Assembly (NCBI RefSeq): GCF_001463745.1
Contig: NZ_BBWJ01000026.1
Coordinates: forward strand, 1-64,000
Direction of reading: 5' to 3'
DNA: 64,000 bases
DNA from: Aureimonas sp. AU22
GTDB lineage: Bacteria; Pseudomonadota; Alphaproteobacteria; Rhizobiales; Rhizobiaceae
The translations under genes were made by a program, and so were the position numbers. Positions 2,058 through 21,290 of this stretch are shown in pieces. Below the pieces are notes generated by a model. The model made no database searches and had not been told where the DNA came from. It saw nothing but the letters and a program-made list of their open reading frames with translations. The first letter of the stretch is position 1, and every line of letters begins with the position of its first letter.

Positions 2058-2816
2058 TCAAAGGAGCCGGTAATGGGCGGCCCTTGCGATGAGTTGGGCC
2101 CTGTTGCGGGCGCCGAGCTTCCGGGCCGCCGCGTTGAGATGCATGGTCACGGTCGGCACCGAGCGGCTGAGCTTTCCGGAGATGTCCTTGGCGGACAGGC
2201 CGTCGGCGGAGAAGCGCAGGCATTCTCGCTCGCGCGGCGTCAGATGCACGGCGCGCGAGCGGCGCTCGCCTTCGCCGAAGAGGGGCTCCACGCCCGCATG
2301 CAGCGCATGGGCGAGAAGGGTGAAATCGCCGAGCAGCCGTGCGCCCTCCCGATGGAAGTCGTCCCGCGCGTCGTAGCGGATGCCCGTGACGGTCGCGCAG
2401 TCGCCCGACCGGCCATGGATCGGCACCGTCACGCCGCAGGTGATCGCCATGTCGTGGACATAGCTCACCACGGGTTCGTGGCGCTTCTCGAGCGCGGGGT
2501 TCAGCACCGTCCGCCCGTCCCGGCGATAGCTCCACACGAAGGGTCGCGAGCTGTTCAGCGCCAGATGCTGCACGGGATCGATCTGATAGAAGCCGTTCGT
2601 CGACCAGAGTTCGACCATGTCGAGCGGGACGTCGCGCATGCCGAAGAACGACGGGGTGATCAGTTCGCCGTCGTGCGTGTAGGCGACCGGCGCATAATCG
2701 TAGATCAGGGCGCCCAGTCCGAGCGCGTCCATCGCGGCACGGGCGACGTCCAGCTTGCCGTCGATCGTCGCGGCATCGCCCAGCGCGTCGTCCAAGTCCC
2801 AGGCATCCCAAGCCAT
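2058..2816 (-). CDS. LuxR-family regulator with autoinducer-binding-type domain, plant-signal 'solo' type
   Basis: Transcription factor of 252 residues: signal-binding domain about 15-170, LuxR helix-turn-helix about 190-250 (LTPRERECLRFSADGLSAKD). AHL receptors keep W57, Y61, D70, P71 and W85 (TraR numbering). Here D80, P81 and W95 match D70, P71 and W85, but the residues 13 and 9 before the Asp are Met67 and Trp71 instead of Trp and Tyr. That W-to-M and Y-to-W pair is the published signature of the plant-associated LuxR solos (OryR, PsoR, XccR, NesR, PipR). No luxI-type synthase is in the window. The gene is divergent from a proline iminopeptidase and a peptide ABC transporter, the same partners as in PipR loci. 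Function as a plant-compound sensor is inference from these features. Confidence 0.9.
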   Translation of the reverse strand: MAWDAWDLDDALGDAATIDGKLDVARAAMDALGLGALIYDYAPVAYTHDGELITPSFFGMRDVPLDMVELWSTNGFYQIDPVQHLALNSSRPFVWSYRRDGRTVLNPALEKRHEPVVSYVHDMAITCGVTVPIHGRSGDCATVTGIRYDARDDFHREGARLLGDFTLLAHALHAGVEPLFGEGERRSRAVHLTPRERECLRFSADGLSAKDISGKLSRSVPTVTMHLNAAARKLGARNRAQLIARAAHYRLL

Positions 2817-2836
2817 CGCGGCCGTCCACCACTGCC

Positions 2837-2854
2837 GAACATTGAGGCATGTTC
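2837..2854. promoter_or_regulatory. candidate lux-box-like operator between luxR-type gene and pip
   Basis: GAACAT-TGAGGC-ATGTTC is a perfect 6-bp dyad spaced by 6 bp, 18 bp in all, the size of a LuxR-family site. It lies 20 bp upstream of the regulator's ATG and about 125 bp upstream of the pip start, so it could serve both. A second, wider inverted repeat GTTTTG-N16-CAAAAC sits at 2901-2928, nearer pip. The assignment to this LuxR protein is inference. Confidence 0.45.
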
Positions 2855-2977
2855 ACATCTTGTGCGATCGCGGGCAAGCGGGCAGGCTCGGACCCTGGTA
2901 GTTTTGATAGCTTTCGCGCGACCAAAACGCTGTCCTACTCTCGACGCCGGGCAACCGTGGCAAGGCGACAAGCAAGC

Positions 2978-3895
2978 ATGTGGCGTGAGATCGAACCGGA
3001 CGAAACCCGCAGCGTCGAGGTCGAGGGAGGCCGCGTCGTCACCTATTCCTTCGGCGAGGGCGACGACACGGTCCTCCTTCTCAACGGCGGGCCGGGACTG
3101 CCCTGCGACTACCTGCGCGACTCCCATTCGTGCCTCGTGGATCACGGCTACCGGGTCGTCGCCTTCGACCAGCTCGGCACCGGGCGGTCCGACCGGCCGA
3201 CGGATCCGGCGCTCTGGACGATCACCCGCTATGTCGGCGAGGTCGAGGCCGTGCGGCAGGCGCTGGGCCTCGGGCCGGTCCATCTGATCGGCCAATCCTG
3301 GGGCGGCTGGCTGTCGGTGGAATACGCGCTGACCCATCCGGCGGGGCTGCGGACGCTAGTCCTGGAGAACACCGCCGCCGACATTCCGCATCTCGTCGGC
3401 GAACTCGGTCGCCTGCGCGAGGCGCTCGGCTCGGAGACCGTGGCCATGATGCAGCGCCACGAGGCGGAAGGGACGCTCGCTCATCCGGAGTATCAGGCCG
3501 CGATCACGCTCCTGAACCACCGGCATGTCTGCCGCCTGTCCGAATGGCCCGCGCCCGTGCGCCGTTCCCTGGATGACTGGAACATGGGCCCTTACGAGAC
3601 GATCCAGGGCCCGAACGAGTTCACCTACACCGGCAATCTCAAGGACTGGAACCGCATCCCCGACATGCACGCGATCAAGGTTCCGACCCTGATCACGGTG
3701 GGCCAGCACGACGAGCTGACGCCGGCTTGCGCCATGCGCATGAAGCTCGCCCTGCCCGACGCCGAACTGCGCGTCTTTCCCAATTCCAGCCACATGCCCT
3801 TCTTCGAGGAGCCCGACGCCTTCTTCCCCGTCCTTCTGGATTTCCTCCGGCGCCGTGGGGGACGCCGGGCCGCGCCGATGGCGGGAGCCGCCTGA
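2978..3895 (+). CDS. pip: proline iminopeptidase-family alpha/beta hydrolase (peptidase S33)
   Basis: Predicted cytoplasmic serine hydrolase of 305 residues that would release N-terminal proline or hydrolyse an amide of similar shape. The oxyanion motif NGGPGLP is near residue 29, the nucleophile elbow GQSWGGW near 107, the acid in GQHDELTP and the catalytic His in NSSHMPFFE. The frame is open 43 codons further upstream, but that extension has no domain character, so the ATG at 2978 before WREIEPDE is preferred. It is followed after 9 bp by the peptide ABC permease, so it leads the transporter operon, and is divergent from the LuxR-type regulator. In PipR-type loci this enzyme is the regulated target. 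Its true substrate may be a plant-derived amide rather than a peptide. Confidence 0.85.
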   Translation: MWREIEPDETRSVEVEGGRVVTYSFGEGDDTVLLLNGGPGLPCDYLRDSHSCLVDHGYRVVAFDQLGTGRSDRPTDPALWTITRYVGEVEAVRQALGLGPVHLIGQSWGGWLSVEYALTHPAGLRTLVLENTAADIPHLVGELGRLREALGSETVAMMQRHEAEGTLAHPEYQAAITLLNHRHVCRLSEWPAPVRRSLDDWNMGPYETIQGPNEFTYTGNLKDWNRIPDMHAIKVPTLITVGQHDELTPACAMRMKLALPDAELRVFPNSSHMPFFEEPDAFFPVLLDFLRRRGGRRAAPMAGAA

Positions 3896-3904
3896 GGCCG
3901 CTCC

Positions 3905-4843
3905 ATGCACCGCTATCGCTTCGTCCTGTCGCGCCCCTTCCAGTTCATTCCGGTGCTTCTCGGCATCAGCCTCGTCACCTTCGTGCTGGTGCGCGCGATC
4001 CCCGGCGATCCCGCCCGGTTGATCCTCGGCACGCGGGCGACGCCGCAGGCGCTGGAACGCGTGCGCGCGCAGTTCGGCCTCGATGAGCCGCTCTGGCTCC
4101 AGTATCTCTACTTCCTGCGCAACCTCGGGCGCGGCGAGATGGGCCGCTCGATCCTCTACAAGGTCGACGTGCTCGATCTCATTCTCGGGCGCCTGGAGCC
4201 GACGCTGGTCCTCGTGGCGGGTTCGGTCGCGCTGTCGCTCCTCATCTGCGTTCCCCTGGCGATGCTGGCCGCCCGGAGGCAGGGCACGGCGACAGACGGC
4301 GGCGTGCGCCTCGCCTCGACGCTCGGCCTCGGCCTGCCGAACTTCTGGCTGGCCATCATGCTGATCATCCTGTTTTCGGTGACGCTCGGCTGGTTCCCGG
4401 TCTCCGGCTACGGCGACACGCTGGCCGCGAAGCTGCACCACATGGCGCTGCCCTGGCTGACGGTGGCGCTCTCGCTCTCGGCGGTGCTCACCCGCCAGCT
4501 GCGCGCCTCGCTGATCGCCGAGATGCGGTCCGACGTCGCCCTTGCGGCGCGCGCCCGCGGTCTGCCCGAGCGCACCATCTTCCGCCGCCATGTCCTGCCC
4601 AACTCGATCCTGCCGACGCTCAATCTCCTGGCCGTCAACATCGGGTGGCTGATCGGGGGAACGGTGGTGGTGGAGCAGGTCTTCGCCATCCCGGGCATGG
4701 GGCAGCTGCTGGTGCGGGCGATCTTCTCGCGCGACTACATGGTGGTGCAGGGCGTCGCGATGGTGTTCGCCGTCGCGACGGTGCTGGTGAACTTCCTGGC
4801 CGACATCCTCACCGTCACGGCCGACCCGCGGGTGCGCCTGTGA
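3905..4843 (+). CDS. peptide ABC transporter permease, DppB-like
   Basis: Inner-membrane permease of 312 residues with about six membrane spans. The N-terminus has the typical LVTFVLVRAIPGDPA segment of DppB/OppB proteins followed by a periplasmic loop. The cytoplasmic EAA-like loop that docks the ATPase is ARARGLPERTIFRRHVLPNS (about residue 215). The gene is the first transporter gene after pip and its stop overlaps the GTG of the next permease. Substrate by family: di- or oligopeptides, or opine-like compounds. Confidence 0.9.
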   Translation: MHRYRFVLSRPFQFIPVLLGISLVTFVLVRAIPGDPARLILGTRATPQALERVRAQFGLDEPLWLQYLYFLRNLGRGEMGRSILYKVDVLDLILGRLEPTLVLVAGSVALSLLICVPLAMLAARRQGTATDGGVRLASTLGLGLPNFWLAIMLIILFSVTLGWFPVSGYGDTLAAKLHHMALPWLTVALSLSAVLTRQLRASLIAEMRSDVALAARARGLPERTIFRRHVLPNSILPTLNLLAVNIGWLIGGTVVVEQVFAIPGMGQLLVRAIFSRDYMVVQGVAMVFAVATVLVNFLADILTVTADPRVRL

Positions 4844-5700
4844 GCGCGCTTCCCGTCTCGCCTCCGGCGGCGGCACCGCCCCTGGCGCGGCGCTCCGGGG
4901 CGCTGCCGCTGCCGCTTGTCGTCGGGCTCGCGATGCTCGCCGCCTTCCTGCTTCTGGCGCTCCTCGCCCCCGTCGTCGCGCCCTACGACCCGATCTTCCA
5001 GGACGCGGCCGCACGCCTTGCCCCGCCATCGCGCGCCCATCCTTTCGGCACCGACAACTACGGCCGCGACATTCTCTCGCGCATCATCTGGGGCACGCGC
5101 ATCGACCTGCAGCTCGCCGTCCTCGGCGTCGTCTTCCCGTTTCTCATCGGTACCGCGGTGGGCACCGTGTCCGGCTATTTCGGCGGGATCGTCGACGGCA
5201 TCTTCATGCGCATCGTCGACGTCGTCCTGGCCTTCCCGTTCCTCGTGCTGATGCTCTCGGTGATCACGATCCTCGGGCCCGGCCTCCATAGCTTCTTCAT
5301 CGCCATGGCGCTCGTCGGCTGGGTGTCCTACGCCCGGCTCGTGCGGGCCCAGATCCTGGTCCTCAAGGGGAGCGACTTCGCGCTCGCCGCCCGCTCGCTC
5401 GGCTTCTCCCACGCCCGCATCATGTTCCGCCACCTCCTGCCCAACGCGCTGACGGCCTCCGTCGTGTTCGCGATGTCGGACTGCGTCCTCGTGCTCCTGT
5501 CGGGCGCGGCGATCTCCTATCTCGGTCTCGGCGTGCAGCCACCGGCGGCCGAGTGGGGCATCATGGTCGCGGAAGGCCAGGGCTTCCTGGCCCGCGCCTG
5601 GTGGATATCGGCGTTTCCCGGCCTTGCGATCGTGGTCCTCGCCTTCGGCTTCAGCCTCGTCGCGGACGGGCTCGGCGACCTTCTGGGGCAACGCGCATGA
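4840..5700 (+). CDS. peptide ABC transporter permease, DppC-like
   Basis: Second permease, 286 residues, with an N-terminal cytoplasmic stretch, a first span around FLLLALLAPVVAPYDP, the conserved HPFGTDNYGRDILSR loop and an EAA loop ARSLGFSHARIMFRHLLPNA. The frame is open further upstream, but the GTG at 4840 overlapping the DppB stop (GTGA) fits the family length and the coupling seen at every junction of this operon. Forms the transmembrane channel with the DppB-like protein. Confidence 0.9.
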   Translation: MSALPVSPPAAAPPLARRSGALPLPLVVGLAMLAAFLLLALLAPVVAPYDPIFQDAAARLAPPSRAHPFGTDNYGRDILSRIIWGTRIDLQLAVLGVVFPFLIGTAVGTVSGYFGGIVDGIFMRIVDVVLAFPFLVLMLSVITILGPGLHSFFIAMALVGWVSYARLVRAQILVLKGSDFALAARSLGFSHARIMFRHLLPNALTASVVFAMSDCVLVLLSGAAISYLGLGVQPPAAEWGIMVAEGQGFLARAWWISAFPGLAIVVLAFGFSLVADGLGDLLGQRA

Positions 5701-6692
5701 GCGCGGCCGGCGTCGATGCCCTGGAGGTGGCGGGGCTGACGGTGCGCGCCGACGGCGCCTTCGGCGAGCGCCGGATCGTGGACGACCTGTCCTTCCGCCT
5801 CGGGCACGGCGAGATCCTCGGGCTCGTCGGCGAGAGCGGATCGGGAAAGACGGTCGCCTGCCGGGCCCTGATGCGCCTCCTGCCGCCGTCGCTCGCCGTC
5901 TCGGCCAACGCGATCCGTCTCCATGGGCGCGAGATCTCGGGGCTGGGGGACGCCGAGTTCGCGCCGTTGCGGGGCCGCGAGATCGGCATGGTGTTCCAGA
6001 ACCCGGCAAGCCATCTCGACCCCGTGATGCGGATCGGCGAGCAGATCGCCGAGACCGTGCGCCTGACGCGGCGTCTCGGTCGGCGCGAGGCGGAGGCCGA
6101 GAGCGTCGAGCTCCTGCGCCAGGTCGGCATCCCCGATCCCGTGCGCCGCGCGCGCGCCTTCCCGCACGAGTTCTCGGGCGGCATGCGGCAGCGCGCGATG
6201 ATCGCGGTGGCGCTCGCCTCCGACCCGAACGTCCTGATCGCCGACGAGCCCACCACCGCGCTCGACGTCACGGTTCAGGCGCAGATCCTGCGCCTCCTCC
6301 TCGACCTTCGCGACCGTCGCGGACTGGCGATCATCTTCATCACGCACGACCTCGGCGTGGTGTCGCAGCTCTGCGACCGGATCGCCGTACTCTATGCCGG
6401 CCGCCTCTGCGAGATCGGCGCCAAGCGCGATGTCCTCGCGACGCCGCGCCATCCCTATGCCGCGGGGCTCGTCGATTGCCAGCCCGCCCACAGCGCCGGG
6501 GCGCGGCGCCTGCGCACCATCGAGGGACAGCCGCCGGGCGTCGGTGAGATGCCGCCGGGCTGCCGCTTCCATCCGCGCTGTCCGAACGCCGCCGGCGACT
6601 GCCGCAGCCACCAGCCACCTCTGGTCGCGATGGGGCCGCAGCGCTGGGCCGCGTGCCATCATCCGCTCGGCTCCGCGAGGGGCGCGGCATGA
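5697..6692 (+). CDS. peptide ABC transporter ATP-binding protein, DppD-like
   Basis: ATPase of 331 residues. Walker A GESGSGKT, signature FSGGMRQRAMIA, Walker B VLIADEPTTALD and switch His in FITHDLGVV are all present. The C-terminus carries the oligopeptide-transporter extension with the cysteine cluster GCRFHPRCPNA...C, which in this family can bind an Fe-S cluster. ATG overlaps the preceding stop (ATGA). Partners with the DppF-like ATPase that follows. Confidence 0.92.
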   Translation: MSAAGVDALEVAGLTVRADGAFGERRIVDDLSFRLGHGEILGLVGESGSGKTVACRALMRLLPPSLAVSANAIRLHGREISGLGDAEFAPLRGREIGMVFQNPASHLDPVMRIGEQIAETVRLTRRLGRREAEAESVELLRQVGIPDPVRRARAFPHEFSGGMRQRAMIAVALASDPNVLIADEPTTALDVTVQAQILRLLLDLRDRRGLAIIFITHDLGVVSQLCDRIAVLYAGRLCEIGAKRDVLATPRHPYAAGLVDCQPAHSAGARRLRTIEGQPPGVGEMPPGCRFHPRCPNAAGDCRSHQPPLVAMGPQRWAACHHPLGSARGAA

Positions 6693-7735
6693 GCGCGCCC
6701 GACATCATCCTCGAGGCCGACGACGTGGTGGTGCGCTTTCCCGGACCCGGCGCGGGGCCGTTCGGCCTCCGGCGTCGCCACGTCCAGGCCGTGAACGGCG
6801 TCTCGCTCCAGGTGCGGCGCGGCGAGACGATCGGCATCGTCGGCGAATCGGGATCGGGCAAGTCGACGCTCGGCCGTGCGCTGCTCGGGCTCGAGCCGAT
6901 CGCGGCAGGCCATGTCGTGCTCGACGGGCTCGCCGTGTCCGAGGGCCGCCGTGCAGACGTCAGGGCCCTGCGCCGGCGCACGGCCATGGTATTCCAGGAT
7001 CCCGCCAACTCGTTGAACCCGCGACGGACCGTCGGCGACACGCTGGCCGAAGTCCTGCGGGTGCACGGAAAGGCGGAGCGCGGAAGGACGGACCGCCGCG
7101 TCGGCGAGCTCCTGGCGATGGTGGGCCTCGATCCGGCGCTCGCCGGCCGACGCCCGGCCGCCCTTTCGGGCGGTCAGTGCCAGCGCGTCGGGATCGCGCG
7201 TGCGCTCGCGGTCGAGCCCCGCCTCGTGATCGCCGACGAATGCGTCGCCGCGCTCGACGTGTCGATACAGGGACAGGTCATCAACCTTTTCCTCGACCTG
7301 AAGGAGCAGATCGGCCTGACGCTGATCTTCATTGCGCACGACCTCGCCATCGTGCGGCGGCTCTGCGACCGCGTCGCGGTCATGTATCTCGGGCGGATCG
7401 TCGAGGAAGGGCCGACCGAGCGCGTGTTCCGCCAGCCGCGCCACCCCTACACGATGGCGCTGATCGCCTCGATCCCGGAGATCGACCCCGACCTCGCGTT
7501 GCCGCTGGCCCCGATGGTCGGCGAGCCGCCGAGCCCGCTCGAGCCGCCGCCCGGCTGCGCTTTCCACCCGCGCTGCGTCTTCGCGCAGGAGACGTGCCGC
7601 TCCGGTCCGCCTCCGGTTCTGCGCCGCGCCGACGACCACGGCTGGGCTTGCATCCTCGAGCCCGGCGCGCTCGCCGCACCGCTTTCCGACCTCCCACCCC
7701 TTCCTGTCCCCACCGAACGCGAGGCTTTCCCATGA
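6689..7735 (+). CDS. peptide ABC transporter ATP-binding protein, DppF-like
   Basis: Second ATPase, 348 residues, with Walker A GESGSGKST, Q-loop MVFQDPANSLNPR, signature LSGGQCQRVGIA, Walker B LVIADECVAALD and His in FIAHDLAIV. The Walker B region reads DEC rather than DEP, a mild variation. The same C-terminal oligopeptide extension with GCAFHPRC is present. The start at 6689 overlaps the DppD stop by 4 bp; an earlier in-frame ATG would extend it without family support. Confidence 0.92.
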   Translation: MSAPDIILEADDVVVRFPGPGAGPFGLRRRHVQAVNGVSLQVRRGETIGIVGESGSGKSTLGRALLGLEPIAAGHVVLDGLAVSEGRRADVRALRRRTAMVFQDPANSLNPRRTVGDTLAEVLRVHGKAERGRTDRRVGELLAMVGLDPALAGRRPAALSGGQCQRVGIARALAVEPRLVIADECVAALDVSIQGQVINLFLDLKEQIGLTLIFIAHDLAIVRRLCDRVAVMYLGRIVEEGPTERVFRQPRHPYTMALIASIPEIDPDLALPLAPMVGEPPSPLEPPPGCAFHPRCVFAQETCRSGPPPVLRRADDHGWACILEPGALAAPLSDLPPLPVPTEREAFP

Positions 7736-9246
7736 CTCGACCCCGCATGATCCGCCTTCTGGCCGCGACGGCGCTCGCCACCCTCTCGCTCACCGCCTCG
7801 ATCGCCGAGGCCGCCGGGGTGCTCACGATCGGCCGGCGCGAGGACTCCACGACCTTCGACCCCATTGCCTCCGCGCAGAACGTCGACAACTGGGTCTATT
7901 CCAACGTCTTCGACGTGCTCGTGCGCGTCGACAAGACCGGCACCAAGCTGGAGCCGGGACTTGCCGAGACCTGGACCGTCTCGGACGACAAGCTGAGCTA
8001 TACGTTCAAGCTGCGCGAGGCGAAGTTCTCGGACGATGCGCCCGTGACCGCCGAGGACGCGGCCTTCTCGCTCCTGCGCATCCGCGACGATCCCGCCTCG
8101 CTCTGGTCCTCGAGCTATTCCATCATCGACACGGCGGAGGCGAGCGACCCGCGCACGCTAACCGTCAAGCTGAAGGAGCCATCGGTCCCGTTCCTGGCCT
8201 CCCTCGCCCTGCCCAACGCATCGGTTCTGCCGAAAGCGGTGGTGGAGGCGAAGGGCGAGGACTTCGCCTCGGCTCCGATCGGCTCGGGCGCCTTCTCGGT
8301 CAAGGAATGGATCCGCGGCGACCGCGTCATCCTCGAGAAGAACCCGAACTACTGGGAAGCCGACAAGGTCGACCTCGACGGCGTGGAGTGGATCTCGGTA
8401 CCCGACGACAACACCCGAATGCTGAACGTCCAGGCCGGCCAGCTGGACGCCGCGATCTTCGTGCCCTTCTCGCGCGTCGAGCAGTTGAAGCAGGATCCCG
8501 CGCTCAAGGTTTCGCTCGACACGTCGACCCGCGAGGACGCGCTCCTCATCAACCACGAGAAGGGAACGCTCGGCGAGGTCGCTGTCCGCCAGGCGCTCGA
8601 CATGGCGATCGACAAGCAGGCCATCGTCGACGCCGTCACCTTCGGCATCGGCGAGGTCGCCAACTCCTACATTCCGAAGGGCGCCCTCTATTATCACGCC
8701 GACAATCTGCGCCGCCCCTACGACCCGGAGCGCGCCAAGGCGATGCTGGCCGAGGCGGGGGCGTCCGACCTCGCACTCGACTACAACGTCAAGGCCGGCG
8801 ACGAGGTTGACGAGCAGATCGCCGTCCTCATGCAGCAGCAGCTCGGCCTCGCCGGCGTCACGGTCAACATCAACAAGGTCGACGCCGCCTCGCAGTGGGA
8901 CATGTTCATCAACGGCGATTTCGACGTGGCGGTCGGCTATTGGACCAACGATGTCCTCGATCCCGACCAGAAGACCACCTTCGTGCTCGGCCACGACACG
9001 AACATGAACTACATGACGCGCTACAAGAACGACAAGGTAAAGGCCCTCGTGGCCGAGGCGCGAACCGAGGCCGACCCGGCCAAGCGCGAGGCGATGTATG
9101 TCGAGCTTCAGACGATCGCCAAGGACGAGGTCAACTGGATCGACCTCTACTACAGCCCTTACATCAACGTGACGCGCGCCAACATCGACGGCTTCTACCA
9201 GAACCCGCTGGGCCGTTTCTGGTTGGAGGACGTGCGCAAGAACTGA
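7732..9246 (+). CDS. peptide ABC transporter substrate-binding protein, DppA/OppA-like (SBP_bac_5)
   Basis: Periplasmic binding protein of 504 residues that would deliver the ligand to the permeases. A Sec signal peptide covers about residues 1-27 (LLAATALATLSLTASIAEAAG). Family landmarks are TFDPIASAQNVDNWVYSNVF, YTFKLREAKFSDDAPVTAED, GSGAFSVKEW and NPNYWEAD. The start is the ATG overlapping the DppF stop, although the frame stays open far upstream. Being last in the operon with a coupled start is unusual, because binding proteins usually need more copies than permeases. Predicted ligand: a small peptide or, given the LuxR-solo context, a plant-derived amide. Confidence 0.92.
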   Translation: MTRPRMIRLLAATALATLSLTASIAEAAGVLTIGRREDSTTFDPIASAQNVDNWVYSNVFDVLVRVDKTGTKLEPGLAETWTVSDDKLSYTFKLREAKFSDDAPVTAEDAAFSLLRIRDDPASLWSSSYSIIDTAEASDPRTLTVKLKEPSVPFLASLALPNASVLPKAVVEAKGEDFASAPIGSGAFSVKEWIRGDRVILEKNPNYWEADKVDLDGVEWISVPDDNTRMLNVQAGQLDAAIFVPFSRVEQLKQDPALKVSLDTSTREDALLINHEKGTLGEVAVRQALDMAIDKQAIVDAVTFGIGEVANSYIPKGALYYHADNLRRPYDPERAKAMLAEAGASDLALDYNVKAGDEVDEQIAVLMQQQLGLAGVTVNINKVDAASQWDMFINGDFDVAVGYWTNDVLDPDQKTTFVLGHDTNMNYMTRYKNDKVKALVAEARTEADPAKREAMYVELQTIAKDEVNWIDLYYSPYINVTRANIDGFYQNPLGRFWLEDVRKN

Positions 9247-9555
9247 GCATCCCGAAATCAGGCTCCGCCTATCCGGCCGGCGGAGCCTGGAAGATCGACC
9301 GCGAAGGAAGAAGCCGGACGCTCGAGGCGGAGCGGCCGACCGGCCGCTGGAGCTTGACCCCGGGGCGCGCCACCCTCTCGTTCCCCAGGAGTGATAGGCC
9401 TCGCCCATGGCGGTCGCGACCGTCCCGGGCTCGTTCGCCAGAGATCCCCGCAACCATCGCCGCCGACATGCGCCGCGCCCGCCATACCCGGCGAAGCCGC
9501 CGGGGGTCGAGCCGATGCGCCATCGCTCGCCGACCCGGCGTTCGGGAGACATGCA
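9247..9555. other. intergenic gap between peptide ABC operon and SGNH spike-type gene
   Basis: This convergent gap of about 310 bp holds one clear hairpin just after the binding-protein stop. I see no gene, repeat or tRNA in the rest; open frames here are short and compositionally like noise. Confidence 0.6.
9260..9288 (+). terminator. hairpin after peptide ABC operon
   Basis: AGGCTCCGCC and GGCGGAGCCT form a perfect 10-bp stem with a 9-nt loop, starting 13 bp after the stop codon. No T-run follows, so it may be a 3' stabilising or weak termination structure rather than a strong intrinsic terminator. Confidence 0.45.
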
Positions 9556-11106
9556 CTAGGCCGCGATCGGCATCGCCTTGATGCTGTCGACGAGGATGCC
9601 GGCGGTCGCGGTCTGCGCCGTGCCCGTCGAGCGGATGCCGGGATGGCCGGGGGCCGCGATATCCGTATCTGTCGCCGAGATGATCAGGCCGTTGTTGAGA
9701 TAGGCCTGGATCGCGCTGCCGCTCACCCGCAGCCGCAGGAGATGGGCCCCGGCCGAGAACGATCCGGAGACGGTGGCCCCAAGCTGCGTGCTCGCGCCCG
9801 CCACGGTCTTGAACATCTGCCAGCCGCCGGCCGAGGACGAGTAGCGGGCGAAATAGAAGGTGTTCGCCGCAGCGTCCGCCCTCGCCATGATGCCGCGATC
9901 GTTGGTGGCGAGCGGACCGGCGAAGACGAGGACGGCTTCCACGTCGTAATCGGCAGACGGGGCGGCCTTCAGCGATCGGAAGACGTTCAGCGTCGAGGGC
10001 GACACCATCCTGCCGGCACCGATCACGGCCGGCGAGGCCGGCGTGTAGCCCAGCTGCAGCACCCACGACGTGCCGCTTTCCCCGACATGCGCCGTCAGGG
10101 GCGTGCCGTCGGCATCCGTCATCGTATCGTCGAGCCAGGGCGTCGTGCCGACCGGGATGGTGCCGGCCCGCTTCGCCGCGAGGACGCAGGCCGCGATCGC
10201 CGCATGGCCCGCATCGGTCGGGTGGATGTTGTCGGGACCGATCAGCGAAGCGCCGCCGCCATCCCGCATGGCGGCATAAGCGTCCGCGAGATAGGTGTCG
10301 TACTCAGCCGCGAGCGCCTTGACGACGTTGACATAGGCCTCGAAGCCCGCCCGGGTCTGGCCCGAGAATCCGCTGGACCCGGTGCCGAGCCCCGCGTCGC
10401 TGATCCACCAGGGGGTGACGAGCACGATGCGGTCGCGCCGGTAGCCGGCCGCGAGGAGGCCGTCGAGGATCTCGCGGTAGTCGGTCTCGAACTCGCGGAC
10501 GTTGAACGTCGCCGGCGCCCCCACGTAGCGCGCGTCGTTGTAGCCGTAGGCGATGACGAGGGTTTCGCGTTGCGCCGCGGCGCCGGTCAGGGCGCCGGCA
10601 AAGCGATCGCGACCATTGCTCGCCATCGGCGCTCCGCTGGCGTCGGGGCTGTTCTGGAGAACGGTGCCGGAGATCGCCTGGTTGAGGACGAGCCCGCCGG
10701 TCAACGCCGACGCCACGATATTGACGTAGCGCTGCGCCGCGCCGGACGCGCCGGTGCCGAAGGTGTAGCTGTCGCCGAAGGCCGCGAGGTTGACCACGGA
10801 TGCGGGCAGGCCGCTCGCGGACGCGTTGCCGATCGAACCGGAGGCGACGACGCAGTGCGGCGAGGTCACCTCGGCCCGGGCCGTGACCGCCTGTCCGATG
10901 GCCGGCGCCGTTGCGAAGGCGTGGGACCAGGTCCCGGAGGGCGACGCGAAGGCCGTTCCCGCCGCGATGCCGTCCAGAAGCACGGTGACGGTTGCGCCGG
11001 CTGGGGCACGTCCGCTCGCGGTCCGCGTGGCCGCATCGTAGACCGGGCGCGAGGGGAGCGATGCGCTCCGCCCGCCCGACAGGTTGCCGATCCCGAGGCC
11101 CGGCAT
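9556..11106 (-). CDS. three-domain SGNH/GDSL hydrolase, likely head/tail-spike enzyme
   Basis: Protein of 516 residues without a signal peptide. Residues about 20-75 look like a bacterial Ig-like repeat (ASGRAPAGATVTVLLDG). The SGNH hydrolase follows, with block I FGDSYTFGTG near 110, Asn-type block III GYNDARY and block V DNIHPTDAGH. Residues about 330-516 look like a concanavalin/LamG-type beta-sandwich. The ATG at 11106 overlaps the stop of the upstream 90-residue spike-base-like protein (TGATG), so both are made together. Lack of export signal plus the partner suggests a particle-borne spike that de-esterifies surface polysaccharide. That role is inference; a plain polysaccharide esterase remains possible. 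Confidence 0.8.
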   Translation of the reverse strand: MPGLGIGNLSGGRSASLPSRPVYDAATRTASGRAPAGATVTVLLDGIAAGTAFASPSGTWSHAFATAPAIGQAVTARAEVTSPHCVVASGSIGNASASGLPASVVNLAAFGDSYTFGTGASGAAQRYVNIVASALTGGLVLNQAISGTVLQNSPDASGAPMASNGRDRFAGALTGAAAQRETLVIAYGYNDARYVGAPATFNVREFETDYREILDGLLAAGYRRDRIVLVTPWWISDAGLGTGSSGFSGQTRAGFEAYVNVVKALAAEYDTYLADAYAAMRDGGGASLIGPDNIHPTDAGHAAIAACVLAAKRAGTIPVGTTPWLDDTMTDADGTPLTAHVGESGTSWVLQLGYTPASPAVIGAGRMVSPSTLNVFRSLKAAPSADYDVEAVLVFAGPLATNDRGIMARADAAANTFYFARYSSSAGGWQMFKTVAGASTQLGATVSGSFSAGAHLLRLRVSGSAIQAYLNNGLIISATDTDIAAPGHPGIRSTGTAQTATAGILVDSIKAMPIAA

Positions 11107-11378
11107 CACGCCATCCCCACGATGTGGCCGGCGGTGGTGCCCGTCGCCAGGACGCGTGCCACGCGGATGGGAAGGCCCGCACCGTCGCCGACGTTGCGGA
11201 AGACGACGGTGTCGCCCGATACGCGGTCCTGAACGGCGATGTCGCCGCCGAGGCCGACATAGATGCCGGTGGTCACGAACGGCAGGTCGACGCTGTCGCT
11301 CGGCGAGACCGCGAAGACGCGGTTGGCGGGGCCGGCGGCGGTCGTCGCGGCATTGAGATAGGGGTCTTGAGCGGGCAT
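11106..11378 (-). CDS. spike base protein, RCAP_rcc01079-like (gene transfer agent head spike family)
   Basis: Small protein of 90 residues. The core SPSDSVDLPFVTTGIYVG, then GGDIAVQD, then LPIRVARVLATGTTAGHIV follows the pattern I know from the family named for Rhodobacter capsulatus rcc01079, which forms the base of the head spikes of the gene transfer agent RcGTA. A strong ribosome site (AAGGAGG) lies just before the ATG at 11378. It is translationally coupled to the SGNH hydrolase and lies downstream of a glycosyltransferase on the same strand. In R. capsulatus the spike genes also lie apart from the main GTA structural cluster. No capsid, portal or terminase gene is in this window. Family match is by eye. 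Confidence 0.72.
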   Translation of the reverse strand: MPAQDPYLNAATTAAGPANRVFAVSPSDSVDLPFVTTGIYVGLGGDIAVQDRVSGDTVVFRNVGDGAGLPIRVARVLATGTTAGHIVGMA

Positions 11379-11509
11379 CGGGTCCTCCTTCGAGCCCGAT
11401 CAGGCTACCGACGCCGCAAGGGACCGGGGAAAACCGGAGGACGGCTTTTCGGACGAACGCAACCGTGCAGCGCGTGGAGGGCCGCGGAGCCGAACCCGCG
11501 TGACGATCC

Positions 11510-12358
11510 CTAACGGCGCGCCTGCCCGAACGCCTCGATCGCCGTGCGCAGGGCGCCGGCGAAGGCCCGCGGCTTGAGTTCGCCCCGTGCCACGAGAGCC
11601 GAGCCGACGGCCAGCTTGCGCACCAGGGCTCCGCGCAGGGCCGGGACCTGACGGGCGTGACGGGCGATCACCATCAGCCCGGACGGATAGTACTTCGCCC
11701 GGATGGCGGTGTTGCGGTCGCGGTGACCGATGCAGGGAAGGGGTAGGAAGCGGGTGCGCCGCGACAGGGCGAAGGCCCGCAGGGCGTAGTCCGTGTCCTC
11801 GGATCCGTTCAGCCGCGCGCCGACGCCAAGGTCCAGATCGAACTCCCCGACCTGCCGTGCCACCGCGCTTCGGAACACCATCGTGTTGGAGGACGCGCGA
11901 CGCAGGACGTCGTGCACCGAGGCGTCGCGCTCGAGCGCGCCGTCCATCGGCACGGGGCTCGACGCGTAGTCGCAGAACCAGAGGTCGAGGTCGGACCGCG
12001 CCGAGAAGGCGTCGTGGATGTAGGGAAGCGCCCCTTCCGGATACCAGCAGTCGTCGTCCGGGAAGGCGACGATCTCGTCGCCGGCCATCCAACCGAGGCG
12101 CCGTCCCTCGGCGAGCAGGAGATTGCGCGCCGCCGAGAGCGAGACGAGGCCGGGCGCCGTCAGAAGGGTGACGAGGCGCGCCTCCTCCTCCGACAGGAGG
12201 TCCGCCGGCGCACTGTCGCAGCCCTGCAGCAGGATCAGGAGCCGCACGTCGATGTCGGCCCGCGCCCGGGCGGCTGCGGCCACGGAAGCGATCATGCGCG
12301 CCAGGACGTCCGAACGGCCGGACGAGAGATTGGCCGTGCTGAACAGGTTCACGATCAT
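11510..12358 (-). CDS. glycosyltransferase family 2-like
   Basis: Cytoplasmic GT-A fold transferase of 282 residues with no membrane span. The acidic metal/sugar-nucleotide motif is FPDDDCWYP near residue 99, and the second acidic motif is GSEDTDYALRA near 186. It probably adds one sugar to a surface polysaccharide repeat. Upstream on the same strand are an SGNH hydrolase and UDP-glucose dehydrogenase; downstream is the spike-base pair. The start ATG at 12358 is the first Met before the MIVNLFSTANLSSGRSD beginning. Donor and acceptor cannot be told from sequence. Confidence 0.82.
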   Translation of the reverse strand: MIVNLFSTANLSSGRSDVLARMIASVAAAARARADIDVRLLILLQGCDSAPADLLSEEEARLVTLLTAPGLVSLSAARNLLLAEGRRLGWMAGDEIVAFPDDDCWYPEGALPYIHDAFSARSDLDLWFCDYASSPVPMDGALERDASVHDVLRRASSNTMVFRSAVARQVGEFDLDLGVGARLNGSEDTDYALRAFALSRRTRFLPLPCIGHRDRNTAIRAKYYPSGLMVIARHARQVPALRGALVRKLAVGSALVARGELKPRAFAGALRTAIEAFGQARR

Positions 12359-12449
12359 GGATGCGGGGCTCCGGGGCAGGGGAACGCGGCGGTCGCGGCG
12401 GACGGCGCGGCGTTGCGATGGGCGGCGGCGAACGGGCGTTCGGGGCGTC

Positions 12450-13136
12450 TCACCGGTCTTCGGACGCCGAACAGCGCAGCACGCCGTCGTCCACCAGATG
12501 CTTCATGATGTTGGGCACGACGATGGCGGTGGCGCTGCCGGGGGTCGGATGGGCGCCGTCGGCGATGGCGAGATAGAGCGCGTCCGCCCCCATCTTTTCC
12601 CAGTCCGGCCGGTGATCGATGTAGCGAAGTCCGAGTTCCTCGGCGAGGCGCCGATGGGCGTCCTCGTATCGGTCCCGGAACGGACGCGCCCAGAGGCGGC
12701 GGCCGCTGACCGGGTTCATGGACATGACGTAGACGACGACATCCGGGTTCTCGCGGCGGAACGCGCCGATGATCGCGCGCATGTTGTCGACGGACGACGA
12801 GACGGTGATCAAGTTGTTGATCGCGGCGTCGTTGACGGCGAACTCCAGAAACAGGATGTCGGGCCGCGTCGCCGCGACCCTGTCCACGGCCTCGACGCCC
12901 CAGTCGGAGGCGGCGCCCGACCGGCCGTCGTTGCTCACGGCGACCGGCCCCCGGATGCAGGCCTCGATCGCGGCGGCGAGCGGCTTCTGCCAGCCGCCGA
13001 TCGCGGTCAGGCTGGTGCCAAACGTGGCTACCCGCAGCGGGCCGTTCCCGGCACCGGGCGGCGCGGCCTGCGCGCTCGCGATGCCCCATGCCAGGGCCGC
13101 GATCGTCAGACCGCGGCGTGCGCCTGTTGCGTCCAT
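12450..13136 (-). CDS. secreted SGNH/GDSL-type hydrolase
   Basis: Exported esterase-type protein of 228 residues. The signal peptide is about residues 1-24 (ATGARRGLTIAALAWGIASA). Block I is FGTSLTAIGG, block III is EFAVNDAAINN and block V is DGAHPTP with the catalytic Asp-x-x-His pair, so the triad looks complete. Gene position between UDP-glucose dehydrogenase and a glycosyltransferase suggests trimming or acylation control of exopolysaccharide. The frame is open upstream into the antisense of ugd, but only the ATG at 13136 gives a signal peptide. Confidence 0.82.
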   Translation of the reverse strand: MDATGARRGLTIAALAWGIASAQAAPPGAGNGPLRVATFGTSLTAIGGWQKPLAAAIEACIRGPVAVSNDGRSGAASDWGVEAVDRVAATRPDILFLEFAVNDAAINNLITVSSSVDNMRAIIGAFRRENPDVVVYVMSMNPVSGRRLWARPFRDRYEDAHRRLAEELGLRYIDHRPDWEKMGADALYLAIADGAHPTPGSATAIVVPNIMKHLVDDGVLRCSASEDR

Positions 13137-13213
13137 CGGTGAGAGCCTCCGTGCCGAACGCGAAGGCCGGAGGGACCCGCCGATGGCGGGACCCGCGCCC
13201 TCGCTGCGCGAGG

Positions 13214-14596
13214 TCAGGCCGAGCGCGCCAGGGCCTCGGGCGCCGGCGCCTGCACGCTGGTGCGGCCGATCGAGTGGTACTCGAAGCCGGCCTGCGTCAT
13301 CGCCTCCAGCGAGAACACGTTGCGGAAGTCGACCATGATCGGATGGCGCAGCGCCGCGCGGTAGCCGTCCAGCGGGAAGCGGACGAACTCGTCCCATTCG
13401 GTGGCGAGGACGCAGAGGTCGGCGCCGTCGATCGCCTCGGCCATGGTCGCGCAATAGGTGATCGCATCGCCGAGCATCTCGCGCGCGTGCTCGCTGCCCT
13501 TCGGATCGTAGGCCCTGACGATCGCGCCGCGCTGGACGAGCTGTTCGGCAACCAGCACCGCCACGCTGTCGCGCACGTCGTCGGTGTTGGGCTTGAAGGT
13601 CAGGCCGAGGAGGCCGATCGTCCGGCCGTCGACGGAGCCACCGGCCGCCTGGAGAACCTTGGCCACCATGCGGTGCGGGCGCGAGCGGTTCACCGTGATG
13701 ACGGCCTCCACGATCGTCGCGGGGCTCAGCGCCTTCTCGCCGATGTGGACCATGGCCAGCGTGTCCTTCGGGAAGCACGAGCCGCCGTAGCCGGGACCCG
13801 GCTTCAGGAACTCGCGTCCGATGCGCTTGTCCGAGCCCATGCCGCGCGAGATGGCGCCGATGTCGCCGCCCACCTTCTCGCAGATGTCGGCCATCTCGTT
13901 GATGAAGCTCACCTTCGTCGCCAGGAACGTGTTGGCGGCGTACTTGATGAGTTCGGACGAGATGATGTCGGTCGAGATCAGCTCGAAGCCCTGGCTCGTG
14001 AAGGGGCGATAGAGCGCCTCCAGCTGTTCGCGTGCCCGCGCGCTGTCGGTGCCGATCACGATGCGGTCGGGCTTCATGAAGTCGGAGACCGCATTGCCTT
14101 CGCGCAGGAACTCGGGATTGGAGGCGACGTCGAAGTCGAGCGACGGGTTCTCGCGCTCGATGATGCGACGCACCTCGTTGCCGGTGCCGGCGGGAACGGT
14201 CGACTTGGTGACCACCACGGCATAGTGGTCGAGGTTGCGTGCGATGTCGCGGCTTGCGGCGTAGACGTATTGGAGGTCGGCATTGCCGTCGAGCTTGCGG
14301 GTCGGCGTGCCCACCGCGATGATCACGATCTCGGCCGCGCGCAGCGCCTCGGCGATGTCCGTCGTGAAGGTGAGGCGCCCGGCCTCGGCGTTGCGCGCCA
14401 CGACCTCGTCGAGGCCCGGCTCGTAGATCGGGATGATGCCGGCCTTGAGCTTCTCGATCTTCGCCTCGACCTGGTCGACGCAGGCGACGCGCCACCCGGC
14501 CTCGGCAAGACAGGAGCCGCTGACGAGGCCCACGTAGCCCGTCCCGATCACGGCAACCTGGGGCGCCGAGCTTCCGGCAAGCGACATATCCAACAT
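13214..14596 (-). CDS. ugd: UDP-glucose 6-dehydrogenase
   Basis: Makes UDP-glucuronate from UDP-glucose with two NAD+. The 460 residues show the N-terminal NAD fold VAVIGTGYVGLVSGSCLAEAG, the middle-domain substrate motif KYAANTFLATKVSFINE, the catalytic cysteine in GPGYGGSCFPKD and the C-terminal LTFKPNTDDVRDS. An internal ATG four codons in (SLAGSS) is an alternative start. UDP-glucuronate would feed acidic exopolysaccharide built by the neighbouring transferase. About 230 bp of non-coding DNA lies upstream, where its promoter must be. Confidence 0.95.
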   Translation of the reverse strand: MLDMSLAGSSAPQVAVIGTGYVGLVSGSCLAEAGWRVACVDQVEAKIEKLKAGIIPIYEPGLDEVVARNAEAGRLTFTTDIAEALRAAEIVIIAVGTPTRKLDGNADLQYVYAASRDIARNLDHYAVVVTKSTVPAGTGNEVRRIIERENPSLDFDVASNPEFLREGNAVSDFMKPDRIVIGTDSARAREQLEALYRPFTSQGFELISTDIISSELIKYAANTFLATKVSFINEMADICEKVGGDIGAISRGMGSDKRIGREFLKPGPGYGGSCFPKDTLAMVHIGEKALSPATIVEAVITVNRSRPHRMVAKVLQAAGGSVDGRTIGLLGLTFKPNTDDVRDSVAVLVAEQLVQRGAIVRAYDPKGSEHAREMLGDAITYCATMAEAIDGADLCVLATEWDEFVRFPLDGYRAALRHPIMVDFRNVFSLEAMTQAGFEYHSIGRTSVQAPAPEALARSA

Positions 14597-14824
14597 CGGA
14601 CCGTTCCATCACGTTCGAGTTGCAGGACGCCCCCTGAGTTCGCCTCAGGTCATTCTACAACTGCAGGATAACGACCCCATGTTTCACGACATCTCCCGCA
14701 ATGCAAGAAAAGGAACGTGACAGGATTGCCGGCGGACGTTGCGAACGCCCCCGGATCCCCGCGCTATGCGCGCCGGGTGATACGGCTATGTCAGCGGCGC
14801 GTGGCTCATGGCCGCGACCCTCGG

Positions 14825-15235
14825 TCAGACCGCGGTTTCTTCTCCGGCCTCTGGCCGCAGGGCGCGGTCCTGGCGCAGCGAGACGACCATGCCGGCCAGT
14901 CTGCGCAGGGGATCATCGGCGGATGAGGCAGACGGAGCGGCGGCGCTCTCGGTGGCGGGCACGGCGATCACCGATACCGTGTGACGGTCGACGAGGTCCT
15001 GCGCCACGCCGCGGATGCTGTCGAGGTCGCGCTGCAATGCGGCACGCCGGAAGGGGCCGCCCTTCAGGAGACCGCCGACCCCGCCGAAAGCCGACAGGCG
15101 CGCGCTCACCGCCTCGAGGCGCTCCATCTGTTTCCAGAATTCGGCCTCGGCGTTCGGATCGATCCATGTCCGATTCTGAAGCATGCTCAAGTCCCAGCCA
15201 GTCCGGTCGGTATAACTGTATTCAACTTGCGGCAT
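14825..15235 (-). CDS. hypothetical protein
   Basis: I do not recognise this 136-residue protein. It has no signal peptide or membrane span. The first half is charged and helical (PNAEAEFWKQMERLEAVSAR, then FRRAALQRDLDSIRGVAQDL), suggesting a short coiled coil; the rest is Ala/Ser rich and low complexity. A TTG directly precedes the ATG. It lies divergently from the epimerase gene at 15358, and its codon use is like the neighbours, so it is probably expressed. Confidence 0.5.
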   Translation of the reverse strand: MPQVEYSYTDRTGWDLSMLQNRTWIDPNAEAEFWKQMERLEAVSARLSAFGGVGGLLKGGPFRRAALQRDLDSIRGVAQDLVDRHTVSVIAVPATESAAAPSASSADDPLRRLAGMVVSLRQDRALRPEAGEETAV

Positions 15236-15357
15236 CAAGCTTGTTCGGACCTGTGAGGCGAGGCTGCGTGGCGGCGGCGCCCGGGCGCGAACGGAATTGG
15301 TTGATCCTGTCGATGTTGCACTGCATATAACTTGGGCGGATACGGACGGAGGTTGCG

Positions 15358-16329
15358 GTGAAGCAGGCGATGGTTGTGGGCGGGGCCGGTTTCATCGGCA
15401 CCCATCTTCTGGAGCACCTGCGCGCGGCGGGCGGTTACGACCGGCTCGTCAGCGTGGACCTCGTCGCCCCCGCGCGGCCCGTGGCGGGCGTCGACTACGA
15501 ACGCCACGATATCCGCCATCCGTTTCCGGCCCGGCTCGACGGCGCCTATGATGCGATCTTCAATCTCGCCGCCGTGCACAGGACGCCCGGCCACGAGCCG
15601 CACGAATATTACGAGACCAATCTGGGCGGTGCGCTCACCGTGTGCGAGTTCGCCGCGCGCAACGGTGTCCGATCGATCCTGTTCACCAGTTCGATCGCCG
15701 TCTACGGCCCGGGCGAGGACCTGAAGACGGAAAGCTCGACGCCCGAGCCCGTCTCCGACTACGGTCGCTCCAAGCTCCTGTCGGAAGGGGTTCACCGCCA
15801 GTGGCTGGCGGGCGATGCGGCGCGTCGTCTGGTGATCGCGCGTCCCGCGGTGATCTTCGGGCAGGGGGAGGGGGGCAACTTCACGCGCCTCGCCGCCGCG
15901 CTGCGCAAGGGAACCTTCGTGTATCCCGGCCGCAAGGACACGATCAAATGCTGCGGCTATGTCGGCGAGATCGTGCGCTCGATGGAGCATGCCCTGGCGC
16001 TGGGCGAGCGCGAGTTCCTCTACAACTTCTGCTATCCGCAGGCCTACACGATCGAGGAGATCTGCCAGGCGTTCGAGCGCGTGGCGGGCTACCGGCCGCC
16101 GCGCGGCGTCCTGCCCCAGCCCGTGATGAACGCGGCGGCGCTTCCCTTCGAGGTGGTCGACCGCCTCGGCTTGCGGAACGGCATCAACCGCGAGCGCATC
16201 CTGAAGCTCGTGCGCTCGACCAGGGTCGAGCCTGCGGCGCTGATCGGATCGGGGTTCCGCTTCTCGACCGACCTCGAAGGGTCGCTGCGCGACTGGAAGA
16301 GCCGCTCAACGGGCGATCGCATGGTCTGA
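15358..16329 (+). CDS. NAD-dependent epimerase/dehydratase (extended SDR)
   Basis: Nucleotide-sugar modifying enzyme of 323 residues. The Rossmann motif GGAGFIG is at residue 8, the Ser of SSIAVYG and the catalytic pair YGRSK (Tyr-x-x-x-Lys) follow near 125 and 140. The C-terminal part, FRFSTDLEGSLRDW, is of the UDP-glucose 4-epimerase/GDP-mannose dehydratase class. The GTG start is preferred because GGAGG lies 6-7 bases before it and the Rossmann fold starts at once. Flanked by ugd and mannose genes, so a role in exopolysaccharide precursor supply is likely. Exact sugar unknown. Confidence 0.85.
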   Translation: MKQAMVVGGAGFIGTHLLEHLRAAGGYDRLVSVDLVAPARPVAGVDYERHDIRHPFPARLDGAYDAIFNLAAVHRTPGHEPHEYYETNLGGALTVCEFAARNGVRSILFTSSIAVYGPGEDLKTESSTPEPVSDYGRSKLLSEGVHRQWLAGDAARRLVIARPAVIFGQGEGGNFTRLAAALRKGTFVYPGRKDTIKCCGYVGEIVRSMEHALALGEREFLYNFCYPQAYTIEEICQAFERVAGYRPPRGVLPQPVMNAAALPFEVVDRLGLRNGINRERILKLVRSTRVEPAALIGSGFRFSTDLEGSLRDWKSRSTGDRMV

Positions 16330-16401
16330 AGCCTCGCCGACGAGGCGCGGTGGCGAAAGCTCGCGCCTCTTGCCAGCGGCGGCCTCTGCCACGCACGCAA
16401 G

Positions 16402-16440
16402 AAGGGACCGCCGACGCTCCGCCGGCGGTCCCTTTCTCGT
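16402..16440 (+). terminator. intrinsic terminator between epimerase and RTX genes
   Basis: AAGGGACCGCCG pairs perfectly with CGGCGGTCCCTT (12 bp) around a 9-nt loop, followed by TCTCGTTT on the plus strand. The symmetric AAG/CTT ends mean it may serve both convergent genes. Confidence 0.7.
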
Positions 16441-16459
16441 TTCCGATCTGCCCGTTCGA

Positions 16460-17509
16460 TCAGGCCAGTAGGATGTGGGCGTTGTCCATGAAGGCGAGGC
16501 TCTTGCCGATCACGGCGATGTCCTGCGCCGCGCCGGCGCCCGTGCCGTCCGCGTCGTAGGACAGGACACCCGTGGAACGGTTGTAGATCACCTGCGCATG
16601 GTCGGCCGTCGCCTTGGCACCGATCACGAAGTCGGATGCCGCGAGCATGCCGCCGTCGGCGGTCAGGCCCGCGAAGGCCGACTGCGAGAGCTGGATCTTG
16701 TCGTCGGCGCTGAAGTCGAAGATCGTGTCGCGGTTGGCCGTGCCGAACTCGGCGAAGGCGAACGTGTCGGCGCCGCCCTTGCCCCAGAGCTGGTCGTTGC
16801 CAAGTCCGCCGGCGATGACGTTGTTGCCCGCCGAACCGGTGATGACGTTGTTCAGTTCGTTGCCGGTGCCGTCGATGTTGCCGCCCTGGAGGCGCAGGTT
16901 CTCGACATTGGCGTTGTCGCGCAGGTCCACCGAGACGGTGGTCCAGATCGTGTCGATGCCGCCGTTCGCCGTCTCCCCGACGACGCGCTCTCCCGCCGTG
17001 TCGAACACGTAGCCGTCGTTGCCGGCCGAGCCCTGGAACGTGTCGAGGCCGCCCTTGCCGTCCAGCCAGTCGTCGCCCGCGCCGCCGACCAGGACGTCGT
17101 TGTAGGCGCTGGCCTTGATGATGTAGCGCTCGACGCTCTCGCCCGTCAGCGAGCCGGTCGGCAGCCAGCCGAGATAGGACTTGATCGTGACGGCCGGGTT
17201 CTCGGTGTTCCCCTCCGACGACATCACGATGCGGCGGTCGCTCGTAAGTTCCAGCGTGTCGGTTCCCGTGCCGCCGTCGAACTTCGATCCGAAGACGAGG
17301 GTCGTGTTCTCGTTCACGATCAGCCGGTCATCGCCCGCCCCGCCGAAGAAGTCGGAAGAGGTGATGATGCCGCCGGACTCGGGCGTCTGGAACACGTCGT
17401 TGCCGTCCAGTCCGGAAATGCTGGCGGCCGTGTAGAACTTCGACGTGAACACGTCGTCGCTATTGGTGAGACCGGTGCGGCCGAACGTGAGAAGTTTATT
17501 AAAAAGCAT
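16460..17509 (-). CDS. RTX-type calcium-binding secreted protein
   Basis: Extracellular protein of 349 residues, expected to leave by a type I secretion system. Glycine/aspartate nonapeptide-like repeats appear at GLDGNDVF, FFGGAGDDRLIV, LVGGAGDDWLDGKGGLD, ITGSAGNNVIAGGLGNDQLWG and KGGADTF. The last 90 residues (TIFDFSADDKIQLS to the end) have the usual hydrophobic, uncleaved C-terminal export signal. There is no N-terminal signal peptide and no catalytic domain that I recognise. The type I exporter is not in the window. AGGGGGAT precedes the ATG and a promoter is visible upstream. Function could be adhesion or matrix organisation in the exopolysaccharide layer. Confidence 0.85.
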   Translation of the reverse strand: MLFNKLLTFGRTGLTNSDDVFTSKFYTAASISGLDGNDVFQTPESGGIITSSDFFGGAGDDRLIVNENTTLVFGSKFDGGTGTDTLELTSDRRIVMSSEGNTENPAVTIKSYLGWLPTGSLTGESVERYIIKASAYNDVLVGGAGDDWLDGKGGLDTFQGSAGNDGYVFDTAGERVVGETANGGIDTIWTTVSVDLRDNANVENLRLQGGNIDGTGNELNNVITGSAGNNVIAGGLGNDQLWGKGGADTFAFAEFGTANRDTIFDFSADDKIQLSQSAFAGLTADGGMLAASDFVIGAKATADHAQVIYNRSTGVLSYDADGTGAGAAQDIAVIGKSLAFMDNAHILLA

Positions 17510-17537
17510 TTCATCCCCCTGCTGTTGATGAACAATT

Positions 17538-17566
17538 CGTTAATGAAGCAGGCCGTCTTGAGTCAA
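17538..17566 (-). promoter_or_regulatory. sigma-70 type promoter for the RTX gene
   Basis: On the minus strand TTGACT (-35) is followed after 17 bp by TTAACG (-10), ending about 29 bp before the ATG. The surrounding AT-rich stretch is unusual for this GC-rich window. Confidence 0.5.
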
Positions 17567-17794
17567 CTGGATGAATAATTATAAGTTAATGACGACACTT
17601 CGATCGATGCAAGCAAAGGTTGTCGGCGCCGTTGCGGCAGGTCCCGCCTTGCGTGCGGCATGACGCCAAGCGCGACCGCCTGCGCGCCTGGCGGCGGCGC
17701 GCAACACGGCTCAGCAGGGGTAGGGGGTGGAAGCGCCGAAGGGTCGGGTATCGCGGAAAGCGTCCGCGAAAGGGGCAGCCGACCGGTCGGCGGA

Positions 17795-19822: not shown

Positions 19823-19864
19823 AGCGCCCCGTCCCCCGACGACGCAACGAGGCGAGGAGCAGCC

Positions 19865-21286: not shown

Positions 21287-21290
21287 CCCC

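Follow-up and report, generated by a model that had tools for sequence, protein, structure and literature searches.

The stretch of Aureimonas sp. AU22 analysed here (64,000 nucleotides, contig NZ_BBWJ01000026.1, positions 1 to 64,000; hereafter the window) carries a luxR gene oriented divergently from a gene of the proline iminopeptidase (pip) family, which is followed by two permease genes, two ATPase genes and one binding-protein gene ending at position 9246. Judged by domains, residues and tree placement, this Aureimonas locus belongs to the PipR/OryR family, the LuxR solos of plant-associated bacteria (PAB), and we assign a probability of roughly 0.68 to the reading that in this member an imported ligand lets LuxR activate the aapA-F uptake/peptidase operon. 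The locus is a reduced form of a documented family, and the membership of Aureimonas has already been published (PMC10134790). The AapA-only content, the separate receptor pocket and the candidate box are new here; no statement on the AapA-only form was found in the portions of the literature on these solos that were covered, by a search not aimed specifically at that form.

The LuxR protein of the window (252 aa) matched the Pfam domains Autoind_bind (1.3e-22) and GerE (1.9e-13). A tree of 47 LuxR rows was rooted at the midpoint, some outgroup rows having very long branches, and the 27 pip-type rows, including the window, formed one side of a branch with a support of 100/100. The opposite side held the outgroup of 11 luxI-paired LuxRs taken from ten luxI-holding loci, the two other LuxRs of the genome and 7 further rows. 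Left out were L021, whose gene is that of L037, and a single open frame of L069 with GerE only; L010-L020 and L042-L052, which are short loci, had no row of their own wherever a longer one covered that place. No named OryR or GM79 PipR sequence was present in the tree; loci L065-L067 stood in for PipR of Pseudomonas sp. GM79, since their AapF is 94-95% identical to GM79 AapF (tblastn). A tree of LuxR solos had been suggested as a check in an earlier note on this DNA, and the resulting position in the pip-type clade, apart from the luxI-paired LuxRs, agrees with the family proposed there.

The lack of luxI stated in the same note was confirmed by a Pfam profile search with PF00765, which returned 0 matches in the genome of the window (4.63 Mb, 99.83% complete) and none in 14 control genomes; the search was able to detect luxI, since matches were obtained in 26 of the 190 genomes of the class. 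The two other LuxRs of the genome (G000:C12:59712-60140 and G000:C53:39979-40413) possess an autoinducer-binding domain, and their first four key positions read W/Y/D/G in one and F/F/S/P in the other. Among named records, the LuxR loci closest to that of the window all came from Aureimonas (72-85% identical), and places in genomes of the same genus fell on such records (G009:C12:413016 on Leaf324, G012:C4:38261 on plasmid pAU20c); 12 of 398 genomes drawn from the phylum, own genome included, gave a LuxR match at E <= 1e-25. Aureimonas is one of the genera that a 2023 review, the only paper retrieved for LuxR solos together with this genus, assigns to its subgroup 0, which comprises the pip-linked PAB solos (PMC10134790). 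A 2015 survey reported the W57M/Y61W group in Rhizobium, Mesorhizobium, Rahnella and others (PMC4338825).

Alignment with other LuxRs showed M67, W71, D80, P81 and W95, as the earlier note had stated, and G128 as well. In TraR numbering the window protein thus bears W57M and Y61W and retains the other key residues, 4/6 of those of the N-acyl homoserine lactone (AHL) domain. These four residues and the LuxR fold would suit a receptor lacking its own synthase and eavesdropping on the AHLs of its neighbours. We regard this as very improbable in view of the W57M/Y61W pattern and the clade apart from luxI-paired LuxRs; moreover, a dedicated importer is unnecessary for AHLs, and both OryR and PipR have been reported as unresponsive to them (PMC4471428, PMC4981722).

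The pair M/W had been taken to define a group of solos that includes PipR. This part had to be abandoned, and M/W was ruled out as a PipR diagnostic, since published PipR is W/W, with Trp retained at the first AHL position (PMC4981722; PMC7301841), and the PipR-like loci L065-L067 show W/W at both AHL positions, plus the T and H published for PipR. Residues G59, V63, M67 and V68 of the window align with K96, T100, W104 and H105 of the published PipR pocket (PMC7301841), the register or conservation being less sure at position 59, where L065-L067 have E, not K. V63 and M67 are the same as V62 and M66 of Kosakonia PsrR (PMC7301841). The receptor pocket of the window and of six Aureimonas relatives features G59, V63, M67, V68 or A68, and S72. 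At the positions of the AHL head group, the residues of the window protein suggest an altered pocket.

The importer opposite luxR is complete, with two permeases, two ATPases and one binding protein, as had been claimed for a DppBCDFA-type system, and proved to be of the AapF type. The closest solved relative of the binding protein was AapF of the PipR system (7kz8/7kz9), with a score of 716 bits, the next solved protein reaching 179. In tblastn searches, the AapF row showed 66% identity over 479 residues with the window protein, 67-68% with five other Aureimonas loci and 69-76% with rhizobial, Pannonibacter, Phyllobacterium, Rahnella and related loci. An AapF-type transporter occurred beside luxR in 20 of the 26 other pip-type LuxR loci, of which L041 was retrieved via the transporter and the remaining 25 via LuxR; the luxR-transporter arrangement is therefore not a matter of chance. 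The six loci devoid of this transporter were L004 (contig end), L029 and L034 (another transporter), L037, L064 and L070; L004 stops at a contig end and L063 begins near luxR, so that genes missing there are uninformative. Since the gene ends overlap or almost abut, the genes from the pip-family gene through the binding-protein gene probably constitute one operon. L064 (G414, 9482-10237) has a pip-clade LuxR with M/W, and neither a pip-family gene nor an AapF-type transporter was present in the 19.9 kb covered.

The AapF orthologue, at 66% identity, and an operon identical in layout to that of GM79 could be taken to indicate that the window system senses the same ligand as GM79 PipR, the ethanolamine-derived compound HEHEAA, as the earlier note had proposed. 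We consider this improbable, as G59, V63, M67 and V68 replace the PipR residues K96, T100, W104 and H105 (position 59 being less sure), PsrR of Kosakonia, M/W as in the window, gave no response to HEHEAA (PMC7301841), and, according to a review, HEHEAA was not bound by a protein closely homologous to the transporter protein (PMC10134790). On the aligned residues, HEHEAA is not supported as the ligand of the window system.

The peptidase gene of the window, whose conserved start is the ATG at 2978 and not 2849, passed the NCBIfam model TIGR01250 (proline iminopeptidase-family hydrolase) with 274 bits at a cut-off of 168. A tree of pip-family proteins, from which L037 was excluded (as L021), resolved two deep groups, each with a support of 100/100: 20 transporter-linked AapA-type proteins, among them that of the window, and 18 luxR-linked PipA-type proteins, separated by scores of 485-713 versus 164-191. 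The two types are thus distinguished here, though both are annotated as 'proline iminopeptidase'. Twelve loci carried both types; AapA alone was found in the window, in L004-L009 and in L063 (other side cut off), and PipA alone in L029, L031, L034, L037, L068 and L070. With a Rhizobium PipA-type query, no PipA-type gene was detected at the window locus or in its genome, the sole match being the AapA-type gene (35%), nor was any detected in the six Aureimonas relatives. Across 21 Aureimonas genomes, the same query gave a match of only 35-37% in seven, true PipA-type genes (65-66%) in two of the AU20 type, and no match at E <= 1e-30 in the remaining 12. At the thresholds used, a pip-type LuxR and a pip-family gene co-occurred in the same 9 of the 21 genomes and the other 12 had neither; genome G017 gave a weak LuxR match only, placed outside the pip clade in the LuxR tree.

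Therefore, a pip-family gene does lie divergent from luxR, as previously described, but it is of the AapA type and not PipA, whose gene is under strong PipR control in GM79 (PMC4981722). The clade placement and the match of only 35% ruled out the window gene as a PipA equivalent. Because the AapA-type enzyme is the sole peptidase, unlike in the GM79 PipR system, no target other than the transporter operon is recognisable in the Aureimonas form.

The region between luxR and aapA contains a putative LuxR box, CCTGGTAGTTTTGATAGCT, centred at -75.5 from the aapA start. A first scan with CTAT-N8-ATAG gave at least 7/8 matching positions in 19 of 20 luxR-aapA regions (shuffled regions, 215/4000), and the pattern CCT-N11-TAG[CG]T was present in 20/20 regions, with centres at -72.5 to -93.5 relative to the start of aapA (shuffled, 65/10,000). 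On the PipA side, the first scan reached at least 7/8 in 13 of 18 regions and the second pattern was likewise present in 13 of 18, two of them (L066 and L067) at another sequence. The core of the box in the luxR-aapA regions agrees with the CT(N12)AG published for pip boxes and las boxes (PMC4471428). In all seven Aureimonas regions, a 13-base run, TGATAGCTTTCGC (2905-2917), and the stretch GCATGTTCACAT (2847-2858) were invariant. A genome search with the 19-mer Aureimonas consensus, allowing at most 3 mismatches, returned one match, the window box itself with 3 mismatches, and 0 in the backward control. This conserved box makes pip (aapA) a plausible responsive target of LuxR, as had been supposed.

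The same region holds an inverted repeat, GAACATTGAGGCATGTTC, identical in 5/7 Aureimonas regions and present as a single copy in the genome at no more than 3 mismatches (backward control, 0), which is a possible second operator or luxR autoregulation site. In the rhizobial loci L030, L032, L033, L041 and L061, inspection by eye revealed a palindrome TGCTCAA-N3-TTGAGCA between box and aapA, some copies being imperfect, which was not seen by eye in Aureimonas. The 'PIP box' of PMC3826837 is an unrelated HrpX motif and was discarded.

Table 1. Coordinates of the features of the luxR-aapA-F locus in the window.
Feature	Position	Strand	Basis
luxR solo, PipR/OryR (PAB) family, M67/W71	2058..2816	-	Pfam domains, residues, tree
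Inverted repeat GAACAT-N6-ATGTTC, GAACATTGAGGCATGTTC	2837..2854		20 bases upstream of luxR
Putative LuxR box CCTGGTAGTTTTGATAGCT, CT(N12)AG core 2895-2910, degenerate left arm	2894..2912	+	pattern in 20/20 luxR-aapA regions
aapA-type pip-family aminopeptidase	2978..3895	+	TIGR01250; AapA-type clade in pip tree
ABC permease, AapB-like	3905..4843	+	BPD_transp_1, synteny
ABC permease, AapC-like; GTG start overlaps preceding stop	4840..5700	+	BPD_transp_1, synteny
ABC ATPase, AapD-like	5697..6692	+	ABC_tran, oligo_HPY, synteny
ABC ATPase, AapE-like; start may be 6689	6653..7735	+	ABC_tran, oligo_HPY, synteny
Substrate-binding protein, AapF orthologue	7732..9246	+	7kz8/7kz9 AapF, E 1.7e-214; 66% identity

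In the mechanism that we propose, AapF together with AapBCDE would import a small compound, dipeptide-like or an amide and probably of plant origin, as the AapF orthology suggests, and this compound would bind LuxR in the pocket whose residues depart from those of AHL receptors. A LuxR dimer would then occupy the CT(N12)AG box and activate the aapA-F operon, and the resulting increase in uptake and in AapA peptidase may, by analogy with GM79, serve to remove the signal or to exploit it as a nutrient. In GM79, a transporter (aapB) mutant showed no response (PMC4981722). Of the PipR-type sensing circuit described earlier for this DNA, the family, the AapF-type importer, the divergent pip-family gene and the lack of luxI were retained, while M/W as the mark of PipR, the PipA identity of the peptidase and the ethanolamine-derived ligand were not.

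A number of observations weigh against this mechanism. In GM79, aapA depends on PipR only slightly (PMC4981722), and some members of the family are unresponsive to plant extracts (PMC7301841). The window was the sole region out of 20 to fall under 7/8 in the first box scan (6/8), and the left arm of its box is poor, reading CCTGGTA versus CCTATCA in the best relatives, with 3/8 pairs matching versus 5 or 6 in most relatives. Moreover, the pattern CCT-N11-TAG[CG]T was formulated after the sequences had been seen, its loose form is found 4 times in the 64 kb window, and a promoter scan of positions 2700-3100 found no sigma-70-like promoter. A whole-genome search with a gapped 16-mer, allowing up to 2 mismatches, returned 16 forward matches versus 15 in the control, showing no excess, and the window box was absent from the places listed in that scan. 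These counts gave no sign of a wider LuxR regulon, the 19-mer having retrieved the window copy only.

The position of the sole close box match of the genome, at an uptake/peptidase operon, would also fit an ordinary nutrient regulator, for which an imported peptide or amino amide of any origin is nothing more than food and, once detected by LuxR, switches on the operon for its own uptake and breakdown, with no plant-specific signalling. Peptone and a tripeptide also activate GM79 PipR (PMC4981722), and the same locus is present in Pannonibacter from slag soil and a clinical isolate. However, the named Aureimonas carriers include both a leaf isolate and A. phyllosphaerae, and the review describes subgroup 0 members as coming from plant or terrestrial sites (PMC10134790); we judge this explanation rather unlikely.

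The locus shows a PipR-type circuit in reduced form, with a single peptidase and, at the stringency used, a single recognisable box, in a genus associated with leaves. It offers a simple setting for studying the specificity of the transporter and that of the receptor, and whether such a circuit needs PipA. We tentatively suggest, at somewhat less than even odds, that Aureimonas contains two complementary half-circuits. One, in the window and six relatives, would comprise LuxR and AapA-F in the absence of PipA, with its own pocket, the importer operon as the sole direct target and a ligand other than HEHEAA; the other would comprise an AU20-type LuxR and PipA beside an unrelated transporter. 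If this is true, the first half-circuit is a self-contained uptake loop sensing a compound other than HEHEAA.

Concerning the surroundings, a GntR/FCD regulator gene (1127-1831, + strand) is convergent with luxR, and its homologue lies past the binding-protein gene in L005; the neighbourhood has therefore been rearranged. Positions 9556-22166 encode a GDSL-type hydrolase, a UDP-glucose/GDP-mannose dehydrogenase, an RTX-repeat protein, a mannose-1-phosphate guanylyltransferase/isomerase, a phosphomannomutase and an RmlD-type reductase, and are likely a surface polysaccharide region.

Finally, the locus was compared with known systems, for which it is useful material and not a new kind of system. 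It shares with the PipR-AapA-F-PipA locus of Pseudomonas sp. GM79 a luxR divergent from an aapA-type gene, two permeases, two ATPases and AapF, a candidate CT(N12)AG box between luxR and aapA, and no luxI at the locus. It differs from it in having no PipA downstream of luxR, an M/W instead of a W/W receptor with further differences at the published pocket positions, and a box with a poor left arm that lies nearer to the aapA start (-75.5 versus the published -91.5). The NesR-type loci of Sinorhizobium and Rhizobium (L041 and L030; species and context suggest the name NesR for L041) likewise combine an M/W LuxR with a divergent pip-permease-permease-ATPase-binding protein operon, the binding protein being 74% identical to that of the window, but they add a PipA-type gene with its own box downstream of luxR, and the annotation gives their ATPases as a single fused gene. 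M/W at both AHL positions and a pip-family neighbour are described for OryR/XccR of Xanthomonas and PsrR of Kosakonia, whereas an ABC importer linked to the locus is absent in Xanthomonas (PMC4981722). The Aureimonas sp. AU20 locus L029 (plasmid pAU20c, 8886-16589) has an M/W LuxR in the same clade, a pip-family neighbour and ABC genes; however, its LuxR is 51% identical to that of the window, its peptidase is PipA-type and its transporter is unrelated to AapF (25%). L029 and L034 constitute a second PipR-family locus type within the same genus, with a LuxR about 50% identical and a PipA-type peptidase, in which the closest solved protein to the binding protein is 8upi and not AapF.

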